NCBI GenBank assembly: GCA_029667085.1
Contig: JARUHJ010000003.1
Coordinates: 248,001-312,000, forward strand
Direction: 5' to 3'
DNA: 64,000 nt
From: Deltaproteobacteria bacterium IMCC39524
GTDB lineage: Bacteria > Desulfobacterota > Desulfuromonadia > Desulfuromonadales > BM103
In this document: one piece after another, positions 5,957 through 17,445 of the stretch
Numbering within the stretch: position 1 is the stretch's first letter
Layout of the letters: every line of letters begins with the position of its first letter
The notes under the pieces: generated by a model
Database searches by the model: none
Seen by the model: only the letters and a program-made list of their open reading frames with translations
What the model was told of the DNA's origin: nothing
Made by a program: the position numbers and the translations under genes

Positions 5957-7366
5957 TCACACCTCGCAAGTTTGAAAGGGTTCTGGAATAACCACATTTT
6001 CGAGATCAAGTTCATTGCGCAAGTCGTTAGCCAGACTCTCGGAGGATTCCTCTTCGCCATGAACGATGAAGGTATGTTGCGGTTTGCACTGCATGGCCCG
6101 CACAAAATCGATCAGACCATCCCGGTCAGCGTGCCCGGAAAAGCCGGTCAGAATCTCTAGTTTGGCACGCACAGTATATTCTTCACCGTAGATGCGAACC
6201 GTCTTCTCCTTCTCCACTATATGGCGGCCCAGGGTGTTGGGCGCCTGCCAACTGGTGAAGAGGATTGTGTTGCGCGGGTCTCCGATACGGTTTCGCAGGT
6301 GATGGAGAATACGGCCGCCCTCAAGCATGCCGCTACAACTGATGATGATCGCCGGGAACTTTAAGTTGTTGAGCGCCTTCGATTGCTCAACGGTCTGGGT
6401 GTACTGGAGACGACCGAAACCAAAGGGGTTGTTATCATCGTCTGTCAGCAGGAACTCGCGGATTTCGGCATCATAAACCTCCGGGTGCAGTCGGAAGATC
6501 TCGGTGGTGCGGGTGGCCAGCGGGCTGTCAACGAAGATTGGCAGATCGGGGATCGCTCCCTCGCTGTGCAAGCGGTGGAAAGCATAAACGAGCTGCTGGG
6601 TCCGACCAACGGCAAAGGCCGGGATCAGCAGCAAGCCACCGCGACTGGCGGTTTCGTTGACAATGCGTTCCAATTCCTTCTCTGAGTCGGGATAAGCCGG
6701 ATGTTGCCGGTTGCCGTAGGTGCTCTCCATGATCAGGATATCGCAACCGTCGCTTATTGGCACGGGGTCACGAATGATGGGGATGTCCGGCCGGCCGATA
6801 TCTCCGCTGAAGACCAGACGGCGGTTCTGGCCGGTCACCTGATCGTCGATGTCAAGGAGGACATGGGCGCTGCCTAGCATGTGGCCGGCATCGATCAAGG
6901 TGAGGTGAATGCCGGGAAAGAGCTGGTGGCGACGGTTGTAGCTTAAACCGACGAATTGCTCCATCGCCTTACCCACATCGGCCTTTCTATAGAGAGGCTC
7001 AAAAAGGCGCTGACCTTTCTTCTTCCTCCGGCGATTGACGAACTCCACGTCATTTTCCTGAATAAAGGCGCTGTCCATGAGCATAACGGCACACAGGTCG
7101 CGGGTGGCCGAGGTGCAGAAAATGTCACCGCTGAAACCATCCTTGACCAGCCGCGGGATGCGTCCTGAGTGGTCAATGTGGGCATGGGATAGCACCAGGC
7201 AATCGACACTCTCGCCCGAACACAATTCCTTGCGGTTACGCTCGAAGGCTTCCTTTCGTTTGCCCTGAAACAGACCACAGTCCAACATGATGGTTTTGTC
7301 GTTCACTTCGATAAGGTGCTGGGATCCGGTAACGGTACGGGCGGCGCCATGGAAAGTGATTTTCAT
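5957..7366 (-). CDS. Beta-CASP metallo-beta-lactamase-fold RNA nuclease (RMMBL family)
   Basis: 469 residues, typical of bacterial homologues of the eukaryotic CPSF73/Ysh1 nuclease. The zinc motif HxHxDH is present as HAHIDH (residues 61-66), followed by the metal ligands in 'AGHMLGSAHV' and 'FSGDIG', the beta-CASP core ('PAFAVGRTQQLVYAF', 'IFVDSPLA') and the C-terminal RNA-specificity block ('GFSGHADRDGL', 'IVHGEEESSESLA'). Predicted to cut or trim RNA in the cytoplasm; exact substrate unknown. Monocistronic, with an AAGGA site upstream. It is unrelated in function to the neighbouring pst operon as far as can be seen. Confidence 0.9.
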   Translation of the reverse strand: MKITFHGAARTVTGSQHLIEVNDKTIMLDCGLFQGKRKEAFERNRKELCSGESVDCLVLSHAHIDHSGRIPRLVKDGFSGDIFCTSATRDLCAVMLMDSAFIQENDVEFVNRRRKKKGQRLFEPLYRKADVGKAMEQFVGLSYNRRHQLFPGIHLTLIDAGHMLGSAHVLLDIDDQVTGQNRRLVFSGDIGRPDIPIIRDPVPISDGCDILIMESTYGNRQHPAYPDSEKELERIVNETASRGGLLLIPAFAVGRTQQLVYAFHRLHSEGAIPDLPIFVDSPLATRTTEIFRLHPEVYDAEIREFLLTDDDNNPFGFGRLQYTQTVEQSKALNNLKFPAIIISCSGMLEGGRILHHLRNRIGDPRNTILFTSWQAPNTLGRHIVEKEKTVRIYGEEYTVRAKLEILTGFSGHADRDGLIDFVRAMQCKPQHTFIVHGEEESSESLANDLRNELDLENVVIPEPFQTCEV

Positions 7367-7507
7367 GTTACAGTCCTTTCCCGAAGATTAAACTTGTGGT
7401 TTGTGAGTTAGTCGTTCATCCCGTTTGAGATCGAATGCCATAATCTTATGATGACAAACCTCAACATTTTGTCAAAATATCAACGTTTCATATTGCCTGG
7501 ATTACAA

Positions 7508-7621
7508 AAAGGCCACCCGTTTCCAGGTGGCCTTTATTGTTTGGCTAAGGTGCCTCTCAAATGTCTCTATCAATAAGAAGCCGTTTCTTTTCTCTCACAA
7601 GTCGTGACGTATAAGAAAAGC
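7508..7621. repeat. Repeated structured intergenic element, copy A
   Basis: Starts with a hairpin AAAGGCCACC / GGTGGCCTTT (7508-7517, 7526-7535), then about 30 bases, then CTCTATCAATAAGAAGCC (7565-7582), then a second stem CTTTTCT / AGAAAAG (7587-7593, 7614-7620) whose loop carries AAGTCGTGAC. The same order of blocks recurs at 11651, 12187 and, diverged, at 17358. On the minus strand the first hairpin is followed by TTTTTG, so it also terminates the GSU3473-like gene. This is the only recognisable content of the 7367-7692 gene-free stretch. Confidence 0.75.
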
Positions 7622-7692
7622 TAAAGGTACGAACCTGAGGATGTTGCTTCTATGGCAGGTCAGGCAATCGTTGAGGGCCTCAGTTATGGTTT

Positions 7693-7992
7693 TTACAGCA
7701 ACCCCGAGAATAGAATTGAAGTAAAAACCAGTACGGCAGCGATAAGTAGAAGCTCTTGCATCAACTTCATCACCAAGCCCTTTCCAGATGGAGCCTCCAA
7801 CATGCAACCTCGACGATCTACCCCCTCGTATACTCGAGAACGGCTATGCCTGCGAATCTTATCACGGCCAACAATAGCCCAGCCCTCTGCGCGCAAGATA
7901 CCAGACACCAACTTTCTATCTAGCATGCGGTCTAGCAGCTGCGGTTTAATCATGCCCAACCTGCCATCAGCATACATAACCCGTATTAGCAT
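7693..7992 (-). CDS. GSU3473-like small protein with C-terminal membrane helix
   Basis: 99 residues. The N-terminal ~55 residues (MLIRVMYADGRLGMIKPQLL... through 'EGWAIVGRDKIR') match my recollection of the GSU3473 family, a small conserved domain abundant in Geobacter relatives and of unknown role. The C-terminus is a single predicted membrane helix (LLLIAAVLVFTSILFSGLL), so it should be membrane-anchored. A strong AAAGGAGAGG ribosome site precedes the ATG. Transcription likely ends at the hairpin of repeat copy A. Domain assignment is from memory, not a search. Confidence 0.75.
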   Translation of the reverse strand: MLIRVMYADGRLGMIKPQLLDRMLDRKLVSGILRAEGWAIVGRDKIRRHSRSRVYEGVDRRGCMLEAPSGKGLVMKLMQELLLIAAVLVFTSILFSGLL

Positions 7993-8039
7993 GCGACACC
8001 TCTCCTTTTGTCTCAGGTTTGAATCTGAAGAATTAAACC

Positions 8040-8081
8040 AAAAAACCGCTACTCAACAATAAGCTGAGACAGCGGTTTTTT
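8040..8081 (-). terminator. Intrinsic terminator after the PilZ-like gene
   Basis: AAAAAACCGCT pairs with AGCGGTTTTTT, with an inner CTCA/TGAG extension. A T-run follows on either strand, so it could act bidirectionally; on the minus strand it lies ~180 bases downstream of the gene ending at 8258 and upstream of the 7693-7992 gene. Confidence 0.8.
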
Positions 8082-8257
8082 AACATAAAGTAGGGTTCTG
8101 CGAGTCTAAGGACCATTCAGTTTCCCCAGCTAAATAATTTGAATAAGACAGTTTCAATTTACATTAAAATGGCAGAAATGTAAAATTTTTACTGCGAGGG
8201 CAAGAAAGCTCCCTATCCTAAAATGGGTTTGTTTTGAGAGATTTAAAGGATCGGGCT

Positions 8258-8920
8258 TTAATTTTCCAAGCTATCAGGAACTCCTGTGTGAGCTAAAATA
8301 TAGTCCCATATACAGGCTCTGGTTTTTTCATTTAAATTGATGAAACTTACGCCCATCGTGATGCTGTTTTGTTCCTCATCAGTCTTGTTTTTGTCAATCC
8401 AAGCGATTTTCGCAGCTATAGATAAGGGTTCCGCATCATCTGGCAAGGCTAATCGCAATTGAACTTCCGAGCCCTTCTGAGGAAATCCATGCAGCCTCTT
8501 CGGTTTTATGGAGGCACCCTTGGTACATAAATTTAATAAACTCCCGTTCGTTACATTCCCTTCCCATTCGAGGTCTAAAGGTAACTCTTGAGAGATTTTC
8601 AGTCGGTAATTTCCTCTTGAAGCTTCCAATAGTTCCCGAAGGGCGGCATAGTTTTGATTCAGGCTCTTTTGGGCAGCCGTGGATGAGACATCACTCTTCC
8701 CCAGAGACAACTTTTCCCGCTCAATCTCTTTTAAAAGAGTCCGGTAATGCCGGATTCGATCGAGGAGAGTGTCTCGGTACATTGTGAAAGCCTCGGTTGT
8801 TACGAACACATCCTTGACTATGACATTTTTTTTACACTGACTACATGTGATAGAGCCCAGCTCAACAAGTAATGAGGAGCTGATGATTCCATCGCATTCC
8901 GGGCATTTCATTTGCAACAT
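8258..8920 (-). CDS. Zinc-ribbon / coiled-coil / PilZ-like protein
   Basis: 220 residues. The N-terminus carries a zinc ribbon (CPEC near residue 5 and CSQC near residue 26), followed by a charged helical region (~45-105) and a C-terminal domain with the pattern of PilZ ('NLCTKGASIKPKR...', a hydrophobic 'EVQLRLALPDD' strand, 'MGVSFINL'). The usual PilZ RxxxR cyclic-di-GMP motif is not evident, so ligand binding is uncertain. It follows the CheY-like gene by 42 bases on the same strand, suggesting a two-gene signalling unit. The PilZ assignment is moderate. Confidence 0.65.
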   Translation of the reverse strand: MLQMKCPECDGIISSSLLVELGSITCSQCKKNVIVKDVFVTTEAFTMYRDTLLDRIRHYRTLLKEIEREKLSLGKSDVSSTAAQKSLNQNYAALRELLEASRGNYRLKISQELPLDLEWEGNVTNGSLLNLCTKGASIKPKRLHGFPQKGSEVQLRLALPDDAEPLSIAAKIAWIDKNKTDEEQNSITMGVSFINLNEKTRACIWDYILAHTGVPDSLEN

Positions 8921-8962
8921 TTGCGACTCACTTTGTGACCAGATGTCCTAAGCTATTAGACA

Positions 8963-9349
8963 TTACCTCAACAAAAGAATCCGGGTCATAGAAACAACCT
9001 TCCCCAGGTTGGTCTTCGGAATATATGCTGCGCAACCATGCCCTCGGGCTTCCTCTTGCGTAATGTCCTTTCCGGTGAGCATGATGACAGGTATAAACTT
9101 ATTGCTCCTGTTCTTGTTTTTAATAAATTGAGAAACATCATATCCACTTAACCCCGTCATCTCTAAGTCAGTTATCACCAGGTCAAAGGGTCCAGTTTCT
9201 CCAAGCTTTGCGCTATCGATCTCTTTAAGAAGGTTGATTGCCTCTTCTCCCGAGATAGCTGTTTCGACATGAAAATCCACAGACAAGGAATCACTGAGGG
9301 CTTTGAGGAAAAAGGGGCTATCATCAACCAGAAGGATTTTCTTTCTCAT
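8963..9349 (-). CDS. Single-domain response regulator (CheY-like receiver)
   Basis: 128 residues consisting only of a receiver domain: acidic pair D9/D10, phospho-acceptor D61 in 'LVITDLEMTGLSGYD', switch Thr in 'VIMLTGKD' (T92) and Lys112 in 'YIPKT'. No output domain. Single receivers of this kind relay phosphate to partner proteins; the adjacent PilZ-like gene downstream is the obvious candidate partner (inference). No kinase gene is nearby. Confidence 0.88.
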   Translation of the reverse strand: MRKKILLVDDSPFFLKALSDSLSVDFHVETAISGEEAINLLKEIDSAKLGETGPFDLVITDLEMTGLSGYDVSQFIKNKNRSNKFIPVIMLTGKDITQEEARGHGCAAYIPKTNLGKVVSMTRILLLR

Positions 9350-10056
9350 CGTTTTCTGAGTTGTCTCCTAGCTCCCGAGGCCCTCATTACCTACCATAAA
9401 CGGGAAAGGCCATCCAATGTATCAGCGGATGGCTTGTGCTCATATCGCATCTTCCCCTTGCAATTCTCAGATACCACCATAAATAAGATACTGGCAATTA
9501 TACCCGTTCATTCGTTGAGGTCAAAGAGGAGGGTTTCTTATTCATCGTCCTGGATTGTTTGGGATGGTTCAGATTGGCGACAACGAAGCTGAAACAGGGG
9601 GGCTACGCTCGAGGTCCTCAGGATCAAGCCTTGCAAAGCGTATAATGCACGGCAATCATCAAAAGCCACAAATTAAGCCGAGGCACGACCAGCCACGCAA
9701 AGTCTATCTGGTAATAAATGCTATATTTGTATAACCCTGTTCTCAATTAAAAATCCCTTATAATTACAAACACCTACTCAACTCATAATTATTACTTCCT
9801 GACACCGCCACAACAGCAAAACATACCAACTGTATACTGTATAAAACAATGCAGGCTTTAAGTAGCTGTAAAATATAGAGAATTTTATTTTTCTAGCTTG
9901 ACTTTGTTGGTGTTTCGGTAATAATTATATCAACTGTGTTAATAAATACCTCTTAAGTTATCGATTGCCGCCATACAGAATCTCCTCTTTCTTCATTCTG
10001 CATGCTGCAAAAAGACGGACGACAAAAAGTCCAATTGAAAAGTAAAGAGAGGGCCT
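9350..10056. other. 707-base AT-rich gene-free stretch
   Basis: No convincing coding frame with a ribosome site on either strand. The right half (about 9720-10050) is markedly AT-rich compared with the flanking operons. It contains one reasonable promoter (9898-9925) directed at the small-gene run; otherwise I see no structured RNA or repeat. Confidence 0.5.
9898..9925 (+). promoter_or_regulatory. Candidate sigma70 promoter for the small-gene run
   Basis: TTGACT (9898-9903) and AATAAT (9920-9925) are separated by 16 bases in AT-rich DNA, 132 bases upstream of the gene at 10057. Sequence resemblance only. Confidence 0.4.
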
Positions 10057-10317
10057 ATGAAATCTCGACTTAAAAAAGCTGGTCTACTGCTCACCGACGA
10101 TGCTGACACCGAGATAGACATCTCTGTCGCCTGGGGCACCTTGTCTCGGCTTGGCTACCCTTCACGGTATGGCGGTAAAGCCCAAGACGGCTCCTACGAA
10201 TATGTCATCATCGACCCCAAAACGGGCAGCTTTTTGGCCACAGGGAAAGGAGCAACACTTGAAAAGTCCATGTGCGAGGCCGCCCTGAATGCTGTGACAC
10301 GATTCGACAGGAGTTAG
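10057..10317 (+). CDS. Small hypothetical protein (86 aa)
   Basis: Not recognised. A GAGAGG ribosome site lies just before the ATG. The protein has a basic start (MKSRLKKAG), a central strand pattern (YEYVIIDPKTGSFLATGKG) and a final helix rich in Ala (EKSMCEAALNAVTRF); the strand-turn-helix ending faintly recalls a double-stranded-RNA-binding fold, but this is only a resemblance. It is first in a run of five small same-strand genes spanning 10057-11532 with AT-richer composition than the neighbouring operons. Confidence 0.7.
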   Translation: MKSRLKKAGLLLTDDADTEIDISVAWGTLSRLGYPSRYGGKAQDGSYEYVIIDPKTGSFLATGKGATLEKSMCEAALNAVTRFDRS

Positions 10318-10385
10318 CACTTCATTTGCCACTTACGACAAATAAAACCATCACAAGCAGCTCAATAAAATTAAAGGAGAAAATC

Positions 10386-10769
10386 ATGAAGTGCCCATTA
10401 TGTAAAAACACCGGACATATTGAAATTGACATGCACACCGACGGTTACTGCCAGGATGCATTCGAATGTGGAGATTGCGGAGGCATTTGGACCTACTCCG
10501 GCAAAGATTTAAAAATCATCAAAGGGAAGAGCAGCAATAAAGTCACAGCTTATTCTGATTTCATCTGCCCAACCTGCAAAGCCGTTCATTGTATTGAAAC
10601 AGATTTGGATGCGTTTCAGTTTCATGAAGAAATCCAGGAATGCGAGAACTGCGGCACGGCGTGTTCCTCCGCCCATGACCTGGTCGAAGTCATCGAAGAT
10701 TCACAGGCCGACTCGTTTCTCAGCACCACATCCGAACATGTCGAATCAGACGACTACGTCTATATATAA
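10386..10769 (+). CDS. Small protein with two zinc ribbons (127 aa)
   Basis: Start chosen at the ATG at 10386, which follows AAAGGAG; longer in-frame starts lack a site. Two zinc-ribbon units are visible: CPLC (residues 3-6) with CGDCGG, and CPTC with CENCG. The tail is acidic. Zinc ribbons of this type bind nucleic acid or protein; no specific function can be given. Second gene of the small-gene run. Confidence 0.8.
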   Translation: MKCPLCKNTGHIEIDMHTDGYCQDAFECGDCGGIWTYSGKDLKIIKGKSSNKVTAYSDFICPTCKAVHCIETDLDAFQFHEEIQECENCGTACSSAHDLVEVIEDSQADSFLSTTSEHVESDDYVYI

Positions 10770-10817
10770 GAACCCTTTTTCAGGTAGTGAAACTACAATT
10801 ATCAAGTGAGGGGCCCC

Positions 10818-10973
10818 ATGGAAAAGTTATGGAAAGAGCACTACTCTGCCATAGGAGTTGAGGATTTCGCCAATACTGTCGTCTTCAAACGTTTCCTCGA
10901 GCGCTTCTGCAAAGAAGAAGAGAATAACCATCGAAGCAGATTGCTCTATGGGGAAGAGGACGCAGAAAATTAA
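10818..10973 (+). CDS. Very small protein (51 aa)
   Basis: ATG at 10818 follows GAGGGG; the frame encodes MEKLWKEHYSAIGVEDF... and ends at TAA 10971-10973. Charged, probably helical, no membrane segment, no recognisable motif. It lies 17 bases before the next small gene, with which it probably forms one transcript. Unknown function. Confidence 0.55.
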   Translation: MEKLWKEHYSAIGVEDFANTVVFKRFLERFCKEEENNHRSRLLYGEEDAEN

Positions 10974-10989
10974 CGCAAGGAGACGTTCA

Positions 10990-11151
10990 ATGTACCTAGA
11001 ACACTGGTCTCATGAAGAGATTGTGACATATTGCAATAACGCTAACCTCCTTTTTTCTAAAGTGAACGAGTTACGCAGCAGAGTAATTCGAGAGCTACTC
11101 GTTCAATTAATAAGACGAGCGACTTCAGTTCTGAAGGAACAGGGCAGGTAA
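10990..11151 (+). CDS. Very small protein (53 aa)
   Basis: ATG at 10990 is preceded by AAGGAG at a good distance. The product (MYLEHWSHEEIVTYCNNANL...) is helical and basic toward the C-terminus (VIRELLVQLIRRATSVLKEQ). No family recognised. Fourth gene of the small-gene run. Confidence 0.55.
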   Translation: MYLEHWSHEEIVTYCNNANLLFSKVNELRSRVIRELLVQLIRRATSVLKEQGR

Positions 11152-11268
11152 ACGACTAACAGGAGCAACAATAAATATTGCCAACGGGGGTGCATAATCG
11201 GGTGATCAGAAGACTATATTCATGTCACAGGTGCAGACATGTACTTAATACAACAAGGAGAATTGATC

Positions 11269-11532
11269 ATGATGCTGCTCTCTAACGCAAATAAGATGCT
11301 GGCCAAAATTTTATTTTGGGGAGAAATACACAGGCAACGAAAGCAACTGAGTAAAATGGATGATTCTCTACTGAAGGATATTGGTGTCAGCCGTGTAGAA
11401 GCTGCCCGTGAAGCGGAACGCAAGTTTTGGGATTATGCGCCAGTTGTAGATGAATCTCTCCAGAGGCGAACGGATACGACCTTAGCCTCATCATCGAAGA
11501 AGAACACCGCCTTCAATCTTCTCTTTCATTGA
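11269..11532 (+). CDS. DUF1127 (YjiS-like) protein
   Basis: 87 residues. The ATG at 11269 has AAGGAG eight bases upstream. The middle carries the DUF1127 signature: RQRKQLSKMDDSLLKDIG followed by VSRVEAAREAERKFW. DUF1127 proteins are small and Arg-rich; some are linked to RNA metabolism and to phosphate or carbon physiology in alphaproteobacteria, but the role here is unknown. The ~27-residue tail after the domain is Ser/Thr-rich. Last gene of the small-gene run. Confidence 0.85.
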   Translation: MMLLSNANKMLAKILFWGEIHRQRKQLSKMDDSLLKDIGVSRVEAAREAERKFWDYAPVVDESLQRRTDTTLASSSKKNTAFNLLFH

Positions 11533-11650
11533 AGACAGGAATGATTTGTTAAACATAGGGGGACTCCTTTTGTTTCACAGGCTTCGTCAGCAGGTTTTGA
11601 TTGCCTTAAATTGCCCATTGTGAATAATTCTAAGAAACCCTGCATTACAA

Positions 11651-11766
11651 GGCCACCAAGGAACGACCCCTGGTGGCCATAGTTTTGCGTACTAAAGAGC
11701 TTTCTGAACACCTCTATCAATAATAAGCCCGTTTTCTTCTTGGAAGTCGTGACTCATAAGAGAAGC
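11651..11766. repeat. Repeated structured intergenic element, copy B
   Basis: Hairpin GGCCACCA / TGGTGGCC (11651-11658, 11671-11678), then CTCTATCAATAATAAGCCC (11712-11730), then AAGTCGTGAC (11744-11753) inside a weaker stem formed by CTTCTT and AAGAGAAG. Same order and spacing as copies A and C. The end of this copy forms the left arm of the terminator at 11763. Confidence 0.75.
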
Positions 11767-11796
11767 CCCCGGTCAGAAGATTGAGGGCTTTCGTAT
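11763..11796 (+). terminator. Weak intrinsic terminator at the end of repeat copy B
   Basis: AAGCCC (11763-11768) pairs with GGGCTT (11785-11790), followed by TCGTATTTTA. It would end plus-strand transcripts from the small-gene run or from the repeat itself. Confidence 0.5.
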
Positions 11797-11823
11797 TTTA
11801 TAGACAGTAACTTATGCGATGAT

Positions 11824-11928
11824 TCAGTCCTCATTTTCCTTGAACATAAACATGAGAAGCTTAATGCCTGCCATGAAGATAGAGCTATATAGCAAAATCA
11901 GTAGAGTAATTTCTATTTTTTCATTCAT
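11824..11928 (-). CDS. Possible 34-aa single-membrane-helix peptide
   Basis: ATG at 11928 with a GGTGG sequence upstream; the product is MNEKIEITLLILLYSS... with one hydrophobic helix and an acidic end (FKENED). The length and composition suit a small membrane protein, but codon evidence is minimal and this may be chance. Confidence 0.35.
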   Translation of the reverse strand: MNEKIEITLLILLYSSIFMAGIKLLMFMFKENED

Positions 11929-11969
11929 TTTATAACCACCGCTAAGAAAAAAACCTCAAAACTATCTTA

Positions 11970-12010
11970 AAAAAGAACCCCACAGCCCAGGAGGTAGAGA
12001 GCGGTGGGGC
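11970..12010 (-). terminator. Minus-strand hairpin with T-run
   Basis: CCCCAC (11978-11983) pairs with GTGGGG (12004-12009); on the minus strand it is followed by TTCTTTTTT. No clear minus-strand gene ends here, so it may end a small RNA or the read-through from element C. Confidence 0.5.
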
Positions 12011-12186
12011 AAGTTTTATGTTTTTAGGAGGTTTTGAAGAAGCTTGTCTCAGACCCGCCTGCCACAGCAAGTCTTCGATGGTGGTTAATTTATAGAATCC
12101 TTCAATAAAAATATACGTGGTGTACCGTAAACTTTGAATCGATACCGCACGAAACGACACTGTGCAAAAGCGCACCGTGAATAAAA

Positions 12187-12296
12187 ATGGCCACCCGCTC
12201 CCTGGTGGCCATAATGTGTCAAGTAAACTATCTCTCAAATTCCGCTATCAATAAGAAGCTGAGTATTCGTCTCAGAAGTCGTGTCATTCGAAAAGG
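12187..12296. repeat. Repeated structured intergenic element, copy C
   Basis: Hairpin ATGGCCACC / GGTGGCCAT (12187-12195, 12204-12212; T-run TTTTTATT on the minus strand), then CGCTATCAATAAGAAGC (12243-12259), then AAGTCGTGTC (12276-12285) in the loop of a TTCG/CGAA stem. The paired bases differ from those in copy A (CTTTTCT/AGAAAAG), which is what compensatory change in an RNA stem would look like. Confidence 0.75.
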
Positions 12297-12482
12297 TTGA
12301 TTCGGCTGATTTTAGTTTTTATCGTTGGCCTTGGTTGGAATTGGGCAAAGGCTCACGAAATGCCCATGGGGAAAAATTTAATCGTTGTTTTGATGTTAAT
12401 GGATTAAAAGCTATCTAAAAGTATTTAGGTTATATGCCAAAGCAAGAGTTACATCAAAAAATAGCTCGGCAGTGCTCAAAAT

Positions 12483-12540
12483 CCGTCTCTAAACCATCTT
12501 TGATATAGAGAAAAAGTACTGATGGCTGGTGTTGAGACGG
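12483..12540 (+). promoter_or_regulatory. Structured leader upstream of the liv-type operon
   Basis: CCGTCTC (12483-12489) pairs with GAGACGG (12534-12540) and, nested inside, CCATC (12494-12498) pairs with GATGG (12521-12525); TGTTTTG follows. It sits 88 bases before the binding-protein start and could be an attenuator or terminator. The remainder of 12297-12628 shows nothing else recognisable. Confidence 0.45.
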
Positions 12541-12628
12541 TGTTTTGTGCGAAGATATGCCCCGTTCAGTTAGAACAAGAATTGTTGCAGAGGAATGAGT
12601 AATATTCAATTTTTATAAGGAGGAAAAA

Positions 12629-13798
12629 ATGAAAAAGTTACTGGTATTGTTGGTTGTCTTTGGGATGTTTGTCCCGAAAGTTTTGCTGGCAGCCGAGCCG
12701 GTCAAGATTGGTATGGTTACCACGCTTTCAACCAAGGCTGGCTACCTTGGTGAAGACGTGCGCGACGGTTTCAAACTGGCTATCGCGCAGGAAGAGGGAA
12801 TGCTAGGTGGAGTGCCGGTTGAACTGCTGGTCGAGGATGACGCTCGTGACCCGGGTAAGGCCAAACAGATTGCCGATCGCTTCGTAAAGCGTGACAATGT
12901 TAAGATCATGACCGGTATTATCTTCTCCAATGTCGCTCTGGCTGTGGTTCCGAAGGTAGTACGCGGCGAGGTTCTCTACATCAGCCCTAACGCTGGGCCC
13001 TCGGACCTGGCCGGCAAAGGCTGTAATGAAAACTACTTCAATGTTGCCTATCAGAACGACAACCTCGATGAGGTCGTTGGCAAGTACGTCAGCGATTCCG
13101 GCTTCAAAAATGTTTACCTGCTGGCACCCAACTATCCGGCTGGCAAGGATCACCTCGCAGGTTTCAAACGTTACTACACGGGTAAAATATCTGGCGAAGT
13201 CTACACCAAGCTTGGCCAATCTGACTACGCGGCAGAAATCGCTGCGCTGCGTGCTGCCAAGCCGGATGCGGTCTTCTTTTTCCTTCCCGGCGGCATGGGG
13301 ATCAACTTTATCAAGCAGTATTCTCAGGCTGGCCTGAACAAGACGACCCCTGTCTTCGGTCCCGCCTTCTCCTTCGACGAACGACTACTTGGCGCGGTTG
13401 GTGCTGCTGCCCTGGGGGTGAAAAACGGCTCCCAGTGGACCCACGACCTCGACAATCCGGCCAACAAACAATTTGTTGAAGCTTTCCGCGCTGCCTACGA
13501 TAGGACCCCGACTCTCTACGCCAGCCAAGGGTATGAGGCTGCACGTTTGATCGGCAGTGCCCTCAAGAGCGTCGGTGGAGATGTGACTAAGTTCGACCAA
13601 CTGCGTACCGCAGTTCGCAAGGCTGATTTTGAGTCAGTGCGCGGCCAGTTCGCTTTCACTTCCAACCAGCACCCGGTACAGAACCTCTACATCCGCGAAG
13701 TCGTCGAAGATGGCGAGGGGGGCTTCACCAACCAGACACTCAAAGCGGTTTTCACCAACCACGGCAATGCCTACGTTGATGAATGCAGCATGAAGTAG
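12629..13798 (+). CDS. Branched-chain-amino-acid-type ABC transporter substrate-binding protein
   Basis: 389 residues with a Sec signal peptide (MKKLLVLLVVFGMF...LLA, cleavage near 21). The mature part is a type-1 periplasmic-binding (LivK-like) fold: 'KIGMVTTLSTKAGYLGEDVRDGF', 'VELLVEDDARDPGKAKQIADRFV', 'YISPNAGPSDLAG', 'YASQGYEAARLI'. A strong AAGGAGG site precedes the ATG. It heads a complete permease/ATPase set. The ligand is not certain: LivK-like proteins bind branched-chain amino acids, but relatives bind amides, urea or aromatic compounds. Confidence 0.9.
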   Translation: MKKLLVLLVVFGMFVPKVLLAAEPVKIGMVTTLSTKAGYLGEDVRDGFKLAIAQEEGMLGGVPVELLVEDDARDPGKAKQIADRFVKRDNVKIMTGIIFSNVALAVVPKVVRGEVLYISPNAGPSDLAGKGCNENYFNVAYQNDNLDEVVGKYVSDSGFKNVYLLAPNYPAGKDHLAGFKRYYTGKISGEVYTKLGQSDYAAEIAALRAAKPDAVFFFLPGGMGINFIKQYSQAGLNKTTPVFGPAFSFDERLLGAVGAAALGVKNGSQWTHDLDNPANKQFVEAFRAAYDRTPTLYASQGYEAARLIGSALKSVGGDVTKFDQLRTAVRKADFESVRGQFAFTSNQHPVQNLYIREVVEDGEGGFTNQTLKAVFTNHGNAYVDECSMK

Positions 13799-17303: not shown

Positions 17304-17357
17304 TGAGGTAGGGGACGCTGTGGGTTAGTCTGAAAATTCTAAGCCTCTATTTTTACT

Positions 17358-17445
17358 GACACCACGAGACCATAACTTTCTGGATTTAAAGTGTCTCTGA
17401 GGTAGCTCTATTAATAACAAACCTTGTCATGTCATAACTTGACCG
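17358..17445. repeat. Repeated structured intergenic element, diverged copy D
   Basis: Retains CTCTATTAATAACAAACC (17406-17423), the preceding 'GTGTCTCTGAGGTAG' block similar to copy A, and a degraded ACCACGAGACCAT in place of the first hairpin. The AAGTCGTGAC loop is only weakly preserved. Identified by alignment with copies A-C by eye. Confidence 0.45.

Follow-up and report, generated by a model that had tools for sequence, protein, structure and literature searches.

A multi-copy intergenic element of Deltaproteobacteria bacterium IMCC39524 as a probable recombination site of integron-like gene-cassette arrays linked to a small serine recombinase

A 64,000-nucleotide stretch of the genome of Deltaproteobacteria bacterium IMCC39524 (contig JARUHJ010000003.1, positions 248,001 to 312,000; hereafter the window) carries several copies of an intergenic element of about 115 bp. 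We consider, with a probability of about 0.62, that this element is the recombination site of a chromosomal integron-like gene-cassette array run by a small serine recombinase, as judged from sequence comparison. The element is present in high copy number, its copies lie head-to-tail, its right-hand partners switch at the centre of a 26-bp dyad termed site 2, and a serine recombinase gene is linked to it. The cassette-site part of this reading is well supported, and the enzyme is inferred from linkage, site geometry and the lack of a better candidate. A first-pass annotation of the window had described the element as a possible conserved RNA with two hairpins; the observation was largely right, the RNA reading was not, and the element is most likely a DNA joining point between shuffled genes.

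The copies in the window were located with a profile hidden Markov model (HMM) run over its whole length; the E-values of copies A, B and C are flattering because the model was built with these copies included. The features are as follows.

7507..7617, + strand: copy A, a full type I element (terminator-like hairpin, site 1 and site 2; E 4.9e-23)
7511..7532, + strand: hairpin GGCCACC..GGTGGCC of copy A (sequence; pair counts on 35 copies)
7567..7581, + strand: conserved block CTATCAATAAGAAGC of copy A, part of site 1 (sequence; shuffle test)
7592..7617, + strand: site 2 of copy A, a 26-bp dyad with centre GT at 7604-7605, the putative crossover
9517..9582, + strand: partial solo type II site (E 9.3e-7)
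11594..11651, + strand: weak type II site with centre CT, adjoining copy B on its left (E 9.4e-4)
11648..11761, + strand: copy B, a full type I element (E 3.3e-34)
11737..11762, + strand: site 2 of copy B, a 26-bp dyad with centre GT at 11749-11750
12185..12292, + strand: copy C, a full type I element (E 2.3e-20)
12269..12294, + strand: site 2 of copy C, a 26-bp dyad with centre GT at 12281-12282
17357..17435, + strand: copy D, a decayed type I element (E 2.1e-5)

Four non-coding copies had been claimed at the outset. Copies A, B and C are real, and no convincing gene was seen in the stretches that hold them; copy D is only a decayed remnant. From left to right, the element consists of an A-rich start, the hairpin, about 30 less conserved bases, site 1 around CTATCAATAAGAAGC, and site 2; the background level of conservation is reached about 19 bases past the start of AAGTCGTGA (84 copies). 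When up to 3 mismatches are tolerated, CTATCAATAAGAAGC has 6 matches in the window against a mean of 1.33 in shuffled sequence, and 0 of 100 shuffles reached 6. Site 2 is the dyad TTCTCAGAAGTC-GT-GACTTATAAGAA, whose halves match at a mean of 7.2 of 12 positions as compared to 3.3 for shuffled halves (292 copies), and all 15 alternative centres tried scored lower. The central GT is present in 283 of 292 copies, or 271 of 279 once duplicates are removed; the 292 anchored sites represent 282 distinct contexts since a few places were fetched twice.

In order to place these copies in a wider context, we searched the genome of the window (G000; 3.78 Mb, 19 contigs) and its family relatives, which together make up 22 genomes. 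The core pattern of the element (up to 2 mismatches) gave 99 matches in G000, against 5 for a reversed-pattern control. A covariance-model search, which the first-pass annotation had proposed, brought out further copies: with a model built from 35 copies and at most the best 150 candidates scored per genome, there were 125 matches in G000, 149 in G003, 133 in G005 and 116 in G007, and 0 to 25 in each of the remaining 18 family genomes. An order-wide search with stricter filters, scoring the best 27 candidates per genome, found a match at E≤1e-7 in 24 of 136 genomes. These include 18 of the 22 in the family and 6 of the 114 outside it, the latter with one or two copies each. The stretches of DNA fetched for pair and neighbour counts (L labels; 890,966 bases in all) hold 362 elements, of which 254 are full, 62 left-only, 45 right-only and 1 neither; 354 are distinct.

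Many of the G000 copies lie in arrays. Of 14 fetched stretches, 13 have every type I element, counting the partial ones, in the same orientation, with 2 to 13 elements per stretch. On contig C11 of G000 the order is 22 on the + strand, then 10 on the - strand, then 3 on the + strand, with two flips and a median element spacing of 1250 bases (30 intervals). A Pfam family was found at E≤1e-5 for 20 of the 32 array genes that were run (86 were listed) and for 5 of 8 window genes. Most of these families have ordinary functions, among them response regulators, ZIP, LysR, glyoxalase, SCO1, MFS and a Lon-like protease.

The first C11 flip (+ to -, at about 29-31 kb, on L032) holds a single insertion sequence flanked by two split elements, which suggests that the flip is an inversion between insertion sequence copies. 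This insertion sequence, with ends like GAGCCTTTTGCAAAAG, was seen repeatedly at one point of the element, CTATCAATA/AGAAGC. Its places are L032 9146-10670, L032 19527-19572 and L033 953 (all on C11 of G000), L109 7035 and L100 1269, and the copy at about 9205-10600 of L032 is 1.4 kb long with a transposase-like frame in two pieces. It may target the element site, by analogy with some insertion sequences at dif sites; for the dif modules of Acinetobacter, insertion sequences that hunt these sites are known (PMC10132070). Two further arrangements were noted. On L044 (3812-4079) two near-identical elements stand in direct tandem with a 113-bp period, which amounts to a cassette without a gene, and on L127 (782-900) the end of an element passes into short tandem repeats built from the site 2 of that same element, with a unit of about 12 bases.

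To locate the point at which neighbours change, we compared elements whose right flanks are homologous. Among 30 such pairs, 18 have both left flanks present and dissimilar, and 7 have homologous left flanks. Dropping pairs with identical or incomplete sequence segments reduced the 18 right-only pairs to 16, which are not all independent, as three come from one trio. The joint breakpoint likelihood of these 16 peaks at +5 (AAGTC^GTGAC), its value being lower by 43.5 log units at -1 and by 19.5 at +10; the single-pair optima fall at 0 to +7 in 7 of the 16 and are scattered in the others. When only pairs at least 94% alike are considered, the 2-lnL (log-likelihood) interval takes in +5 to +7 in 12 of 17 pairs, 6 of 8 on the right side and 6 of 9 on the left, where 4 of 13 pairs had been dropped for indels. 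The homology between copies that match on the right and differ on the left thus starts at the centre of site 2. There are exceptions: the recombinase-bearing copies in G000 agree up to site 1 and differ beyond it, which may reflect exchange at site 1 too.

The copy A locus illustrates this change of partners. The match of G007 to G000 covers the hairpin and site 1 and stops at the GT of site 2, beyond which G007 has unrelated DNA. G003 follows G000 for about 40 bases past the GT before a stretch of about 1.2 kb is missing. Of the element, G005 retains just the hairpin, and G001 has no element there. At the copy D locus, G003 has a fuller element with a type II site in front.

Type II is a second repeat, found to the left of 93 of the 254 full elements, and it also occurs alone or ahead of other terminators. 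Its consensus end is TTCTTACTGACC-CT-GACATATAAGAA, with the central CT in 223 of 234 sites (222 of 233 with duplicates removed). In one pair of relatives, L103 carries a solo type II site as a clean insertion of 88 bp relative to L240.

A resolvase-domain search of the family revealed a serine recombinase of 190 amino acids (aa) encoded directly in front of elements. Eight loci carry a full-length gene, at least 77.9% identical. In 6 of them, from three genera, the gene ends 4-6 bp ahead of an element, namely on C2 and C13 of G000 and in G003 (where the element is cut by the contig end), G009, G011 and G017; in G002 it ends 8 bp before a partial element. Among genes of at least 80 aa on the same strand as the element, examined for 280 elements of four genomes, two copies of this recombinase are the only ones that end 6 bp or less from the left end; the next closest gene ends at 17 bp. 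By eye, a type II site lies just upstream of the recombinase gene in 5 of 10 copies inspected. Since the recombinase stands directly before elements, often with a type II site upstream, the common elements look like the end of its cassette without the gene. Among the readings offered by the first-pass annotation, a non-autonomous mobile repeat therefore comes closest, insofar as the element resembles a serine-recombinase cassette end mostly without the recombinase gene. Genomes carrying the recombinase, counted at 70% identity or more and at any length, also have more elements than those lacking it (10 versus 12 genomes; Mann-Whitney p 0.0015, uncorrected for kinship). Among plasmids, at least 5000 records carry relatives of the recombinase, and among the matches listed all are below 60% identity.

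The protein belongs to Pfam PF00239 (E 3.5e-38) and contains the motifs YARVST, the catalytic serine motif, and KLDRLARS. The ratio of nonsynonymous to synonymous substitution rates (dN/dS) is 0.03-0.11 in the 9 pairs, out of 15, for which it could be computed, three of these with saturated dS. The recombinase is thus an intact resolvase-domain protein under selection, and the site it accompanies is a crossover dyad of about 26 bp whose conserved central dinucleotide lies where exchange takes place. Serine recombinases cut both strands of two dyads two bases apart and rejoin them after rotation. With a two-base-staggered cut followed by rotation, the partners share the central dinucleotide only, which fits both the conserved GT and the sharp right-side switch. 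We propose that the recombinase, whose gene forms a cassette of its own immediately ahead of a type I element, would join matching sites at the central dinucleotide (GT for type I, CT for type II), so that DNA between two sites could be excised, inserted or exchanged, and that the common type I elements would be recombinase-less derivatives of the recombinase cassette end. The recombinase would be the catalyst, circles would be the intermediates, and the same or a sister enzyme would serve both site types.

Several observations weigh against this proposal. G005 has only a C-terminal recombinase remnant with no adjoining element and no intact copy, in G007 a remnant lies 12 bp ahead of an element while a match of 151 residues has none next to it, and neither G014 (23 matches) nor G001 (16 matches) has a recombinase copy of at least 70% identity. 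Conversely, G021 has a full-length recombinase gene and 0 model matches, with a similar hairpin seen by eye only. The count test weakens when only full-length genes are considered (p 0.026, 7 versus 15 genomes). On the left side the breakpoints are spread, the 44 left-only pairs giving a joint peak at -42 and single optima from -62 to +10, and 3 of the 9 good left-side pairs break elsewhere. G003 lacks the window stretches at about 7645-8880 and 11891-12405 (514 bp, including copy C), and neither of these gaps, around copies A and C, has its ends at a GT centre; they look like ordinary deletions or insertions. The type II breakpoints are broad, with joint peaks at +18 (27 right-only pairs) and -27 (10 left-only pairs), and the CT crossover therefore rests on conservation and single pairs.

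The spread on the left would fit elements that are dispersed repeats of a serine-recombinase mobile unit, comparable to miniature inverted-repeat transposable elements, with arrays arising from insertion hotspots and homologous recombination and having no cassette function. The resemblance of the elements to recombinase-less derivatives of a recombinase unit agrees with this, as does the clean 88-bp insertion. However, such repeats would not be expected to show the uniform orientation within runs, the right-side switching within about ten bases, or the excess of unrelated over related left neighbours among right-homologous pairs (18 and 7 of 30), and we regard this explanation as distinctly unlikely.

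The same cassette array could be served by the host XerC/XerD proteins, as in the plasmid dif modules of Acinetobacter, with the serine recombinase as a frequent passenger. This would explain G005, which is without an intact serine recombinase of this family. XerC-like and XerD-like proteins are, by bit scores and clustering, the only tyrosine recombinases found in all four array-rich genomes (G000, G003, G005 and G007), and 6 of 9 bases agree between the left arm of site 2 and the left arm of a dif-like site at C1:514777 of G000 (GTCGCATAA versus TTCTCAGAA, compared by eye and without statistics), a likeness that also counts against the serine recombinase. On the other hand, Xer-like matches occur in 10 of 11 genus genomes, element-poor ones included (there are none in G004, which is 59% complete). 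The fall of right-hand switching at the dyad centre and the direct repetition of sites within runs argue against XerC/XerD, which would also leave unexplained why the recombinase gene lies 4-6 bp from an element in more than one genus. We think a XerC/XerD array unlikely; XerCD, or an enzyme missed in assembly gaps, is a possible catalyst. A resolvase-domain fragment (C1:514207-514800; 22 bits, below the cut-off) was noticed about 400 bases from the dif-like site.

A dedicated tyrosine integrase was also sought. The search gave 9 PF00589 matches in G000 and also took in the matches of ten genus relatives, and clustering of 20 fetched regions with two G000 Xer genes found no family besides Xer common to the four array-rich genomes; such an integrase could be missing from G003 because that assembly is 91% complete.

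The arrays described here resemble integrons and clusters of attC sites lacking integron-integrases in their head-to-tail arrangement of varied genes, in their partly palindromic sites of about 60-130 bp with the crossover inside the site, and in neighbours that differ between related genomes. The head-to-tail order was found in 13 of 14 stretches, with a crossover that is sharp on the right and spread on the left. It could accordingly be supposed that the elements are orphan or divergent integron cassettes, i.e. attC-like sites left by an integron integrase and recombined as single strands. The anatomy of units made of a gene and a site, the one-point crossover, and the presence of integron integrases over the cut-off in 7 of the 22 family genomes are in keeping with this. 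These integrases (TIGR02249) are, however, all outside the four array-rich genomes (0 of 4, G003 being 91% complete): they belong to G002, G006, G008, G014, G015, G016 and G020, which have 0 to 25 repeats, and the trend towards lower repeat counts in integrase-bearing genomes is not significant (p 0.069). The integron core GTTRRRY was found at the crossover in 0 of 292 sites, so the statement that the element is not attC was right by sequence, and neither site model matches any of 6 integron-integrase loci (flanks up to 1.5 kb). In place of the attC core there is a conserved 26-bp dyad with a central dinucleotide, and the linked gene is a serine recombinase. We consider an integron origin very unlikely, although the element seems to work like attC despite its different sequence.

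The first hairpin had been described both as part of a conserved RNA and as a terminator. Its conservation as a structure was borne out, as 85.5% of 344 cells pair across 35 copies, with 9 compensatory cells against a shuffled mean of 3.9. The A-run on the 5' side of the copy A hairpin makes it terminator-like on the minus strand, and in two elements on L034 the hairpin is listed as terminator-like on the strand of the genes reading into the element, but the terminator scan taken together gave no excess over shuffled sequence (21 hits against 18.5 expected). By eye only, the hairpin loop resembles a tRNA T-arm. Open reading frames to the right of the element (at least 80 aa, within 600 bp, chosen by a simple script) read into it in 130 of 188 cases at a median distance of 67 bp, which gives partial support to a 3'-untranslated-region module.

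As to the second stem, the strings cited for it are indeed present in copies A and C, but the paired RNA change was not confirmed, and the region is the near-palindromic 26-bp DNA site. A structured RNA family, whether small RNA or riboswitch, would account for a conserved hairpin with some compensatory change. That change is limited to the terminator-like hairpin, and RNAalifold placed 0 pairs on a 66-copy alignment, which is weak evidence because it missed the first hairpin too. A search of the window against Rfam brought no family to its gathering score at the places of the element, and the best sub-threshold match in 7000-13000 (searched at E≤5) had an E-value of 0.082. The conserved right half of the element coincides, moreover, with the recombination junctions. 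The small RNA reading is thus unsupported, and we hold a structured RNA to be highly improbable.

Returning to the proposed serine-recombinase arrays, we compared them with known site-specific systems. The nearest solved chains to the recombinase are DNA invertases (4m6f best, also 3uj3) and gamma-delta resolvase, and Tn3 resolvase is among its relatives. With Tn3-type resolvase/res and Sin/res the arrays share a small serine recombinase gene beside a compound site, made of a crossover dyad and a further site; the accessory sites of res stand beside its crossover site (PMC9943657). Here, in contrast, there are more than 100 copies per genome acting as gene separators, in four genomes. The DNA invertases (Hin, Gin and their kin) have sites of the same length, the hix crossover sites being 26 bp (PMC4513852), whereas here the sites are in direct order within runs and partner genes change, with no inversion of a single segment.

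In the dif/pdif modules of Acinetobacter (XerCD), genes are likewise flanked by short dyad sites, and the modules are shuffled between replicons. In XerCD dif modules neighbouring sites are in inverse orientation, whereas 13 of 14 stretches of our arrays have one orientation. In our case, furthermore, another enzyme family is proposed, only part of one arm is shared with the dif-like site of the genome, and the direct-repeat arrays are chromosomal. Taken by its working, the system fits an integron-like one, and by its protein and site geometry it fits the small serine recombinase class. No description of such many-gene serine-recombinase arrays was found among the papers listed first by full-text searches of open PubMed Central papers for related terms, a collection with most subscription papers and all bioRxiv preprints outside it.

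Elements were also seen in genome bins of other groups, namely on L103 and L150 (Shewanella MAG-BB-1), L117 (a Flavobacteriales metagenome-assembled genome, MAG), and L134 and L137 (a Desulfofustis MAG). These are probably mis-binned contigs, or otherwise cases of horizontal transfer; mis-binning is probable for L150 because two of its contexts are identical to those of G007. Viral contigs gave 0 exact matches to one 27-base pattern of the element.

For gathering single genes and changing their order, the textbook route in bacteria is the integron, which relies on one tyrosine integrase together with its folded sites. There is about an even chance, in our view, that the arrays represent a second, independent invention of the integron in Desulfuromonadales, based on a serine recombinase, orthogonal GT and CT site classes and a built-in terminator, with cutting and rejoining of double-stranded DNA rather than of a single-stranded hairpin. 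If so, gene-cassette capture would have evolved more than once, here with more than 100 sites per genome on a serine recombinase. Such a double-stranded, dinucleotide-addressed system may serve as a tool, and annotators would be alerted to the mobility of the 115-bp repeats and of the genes lying between them.

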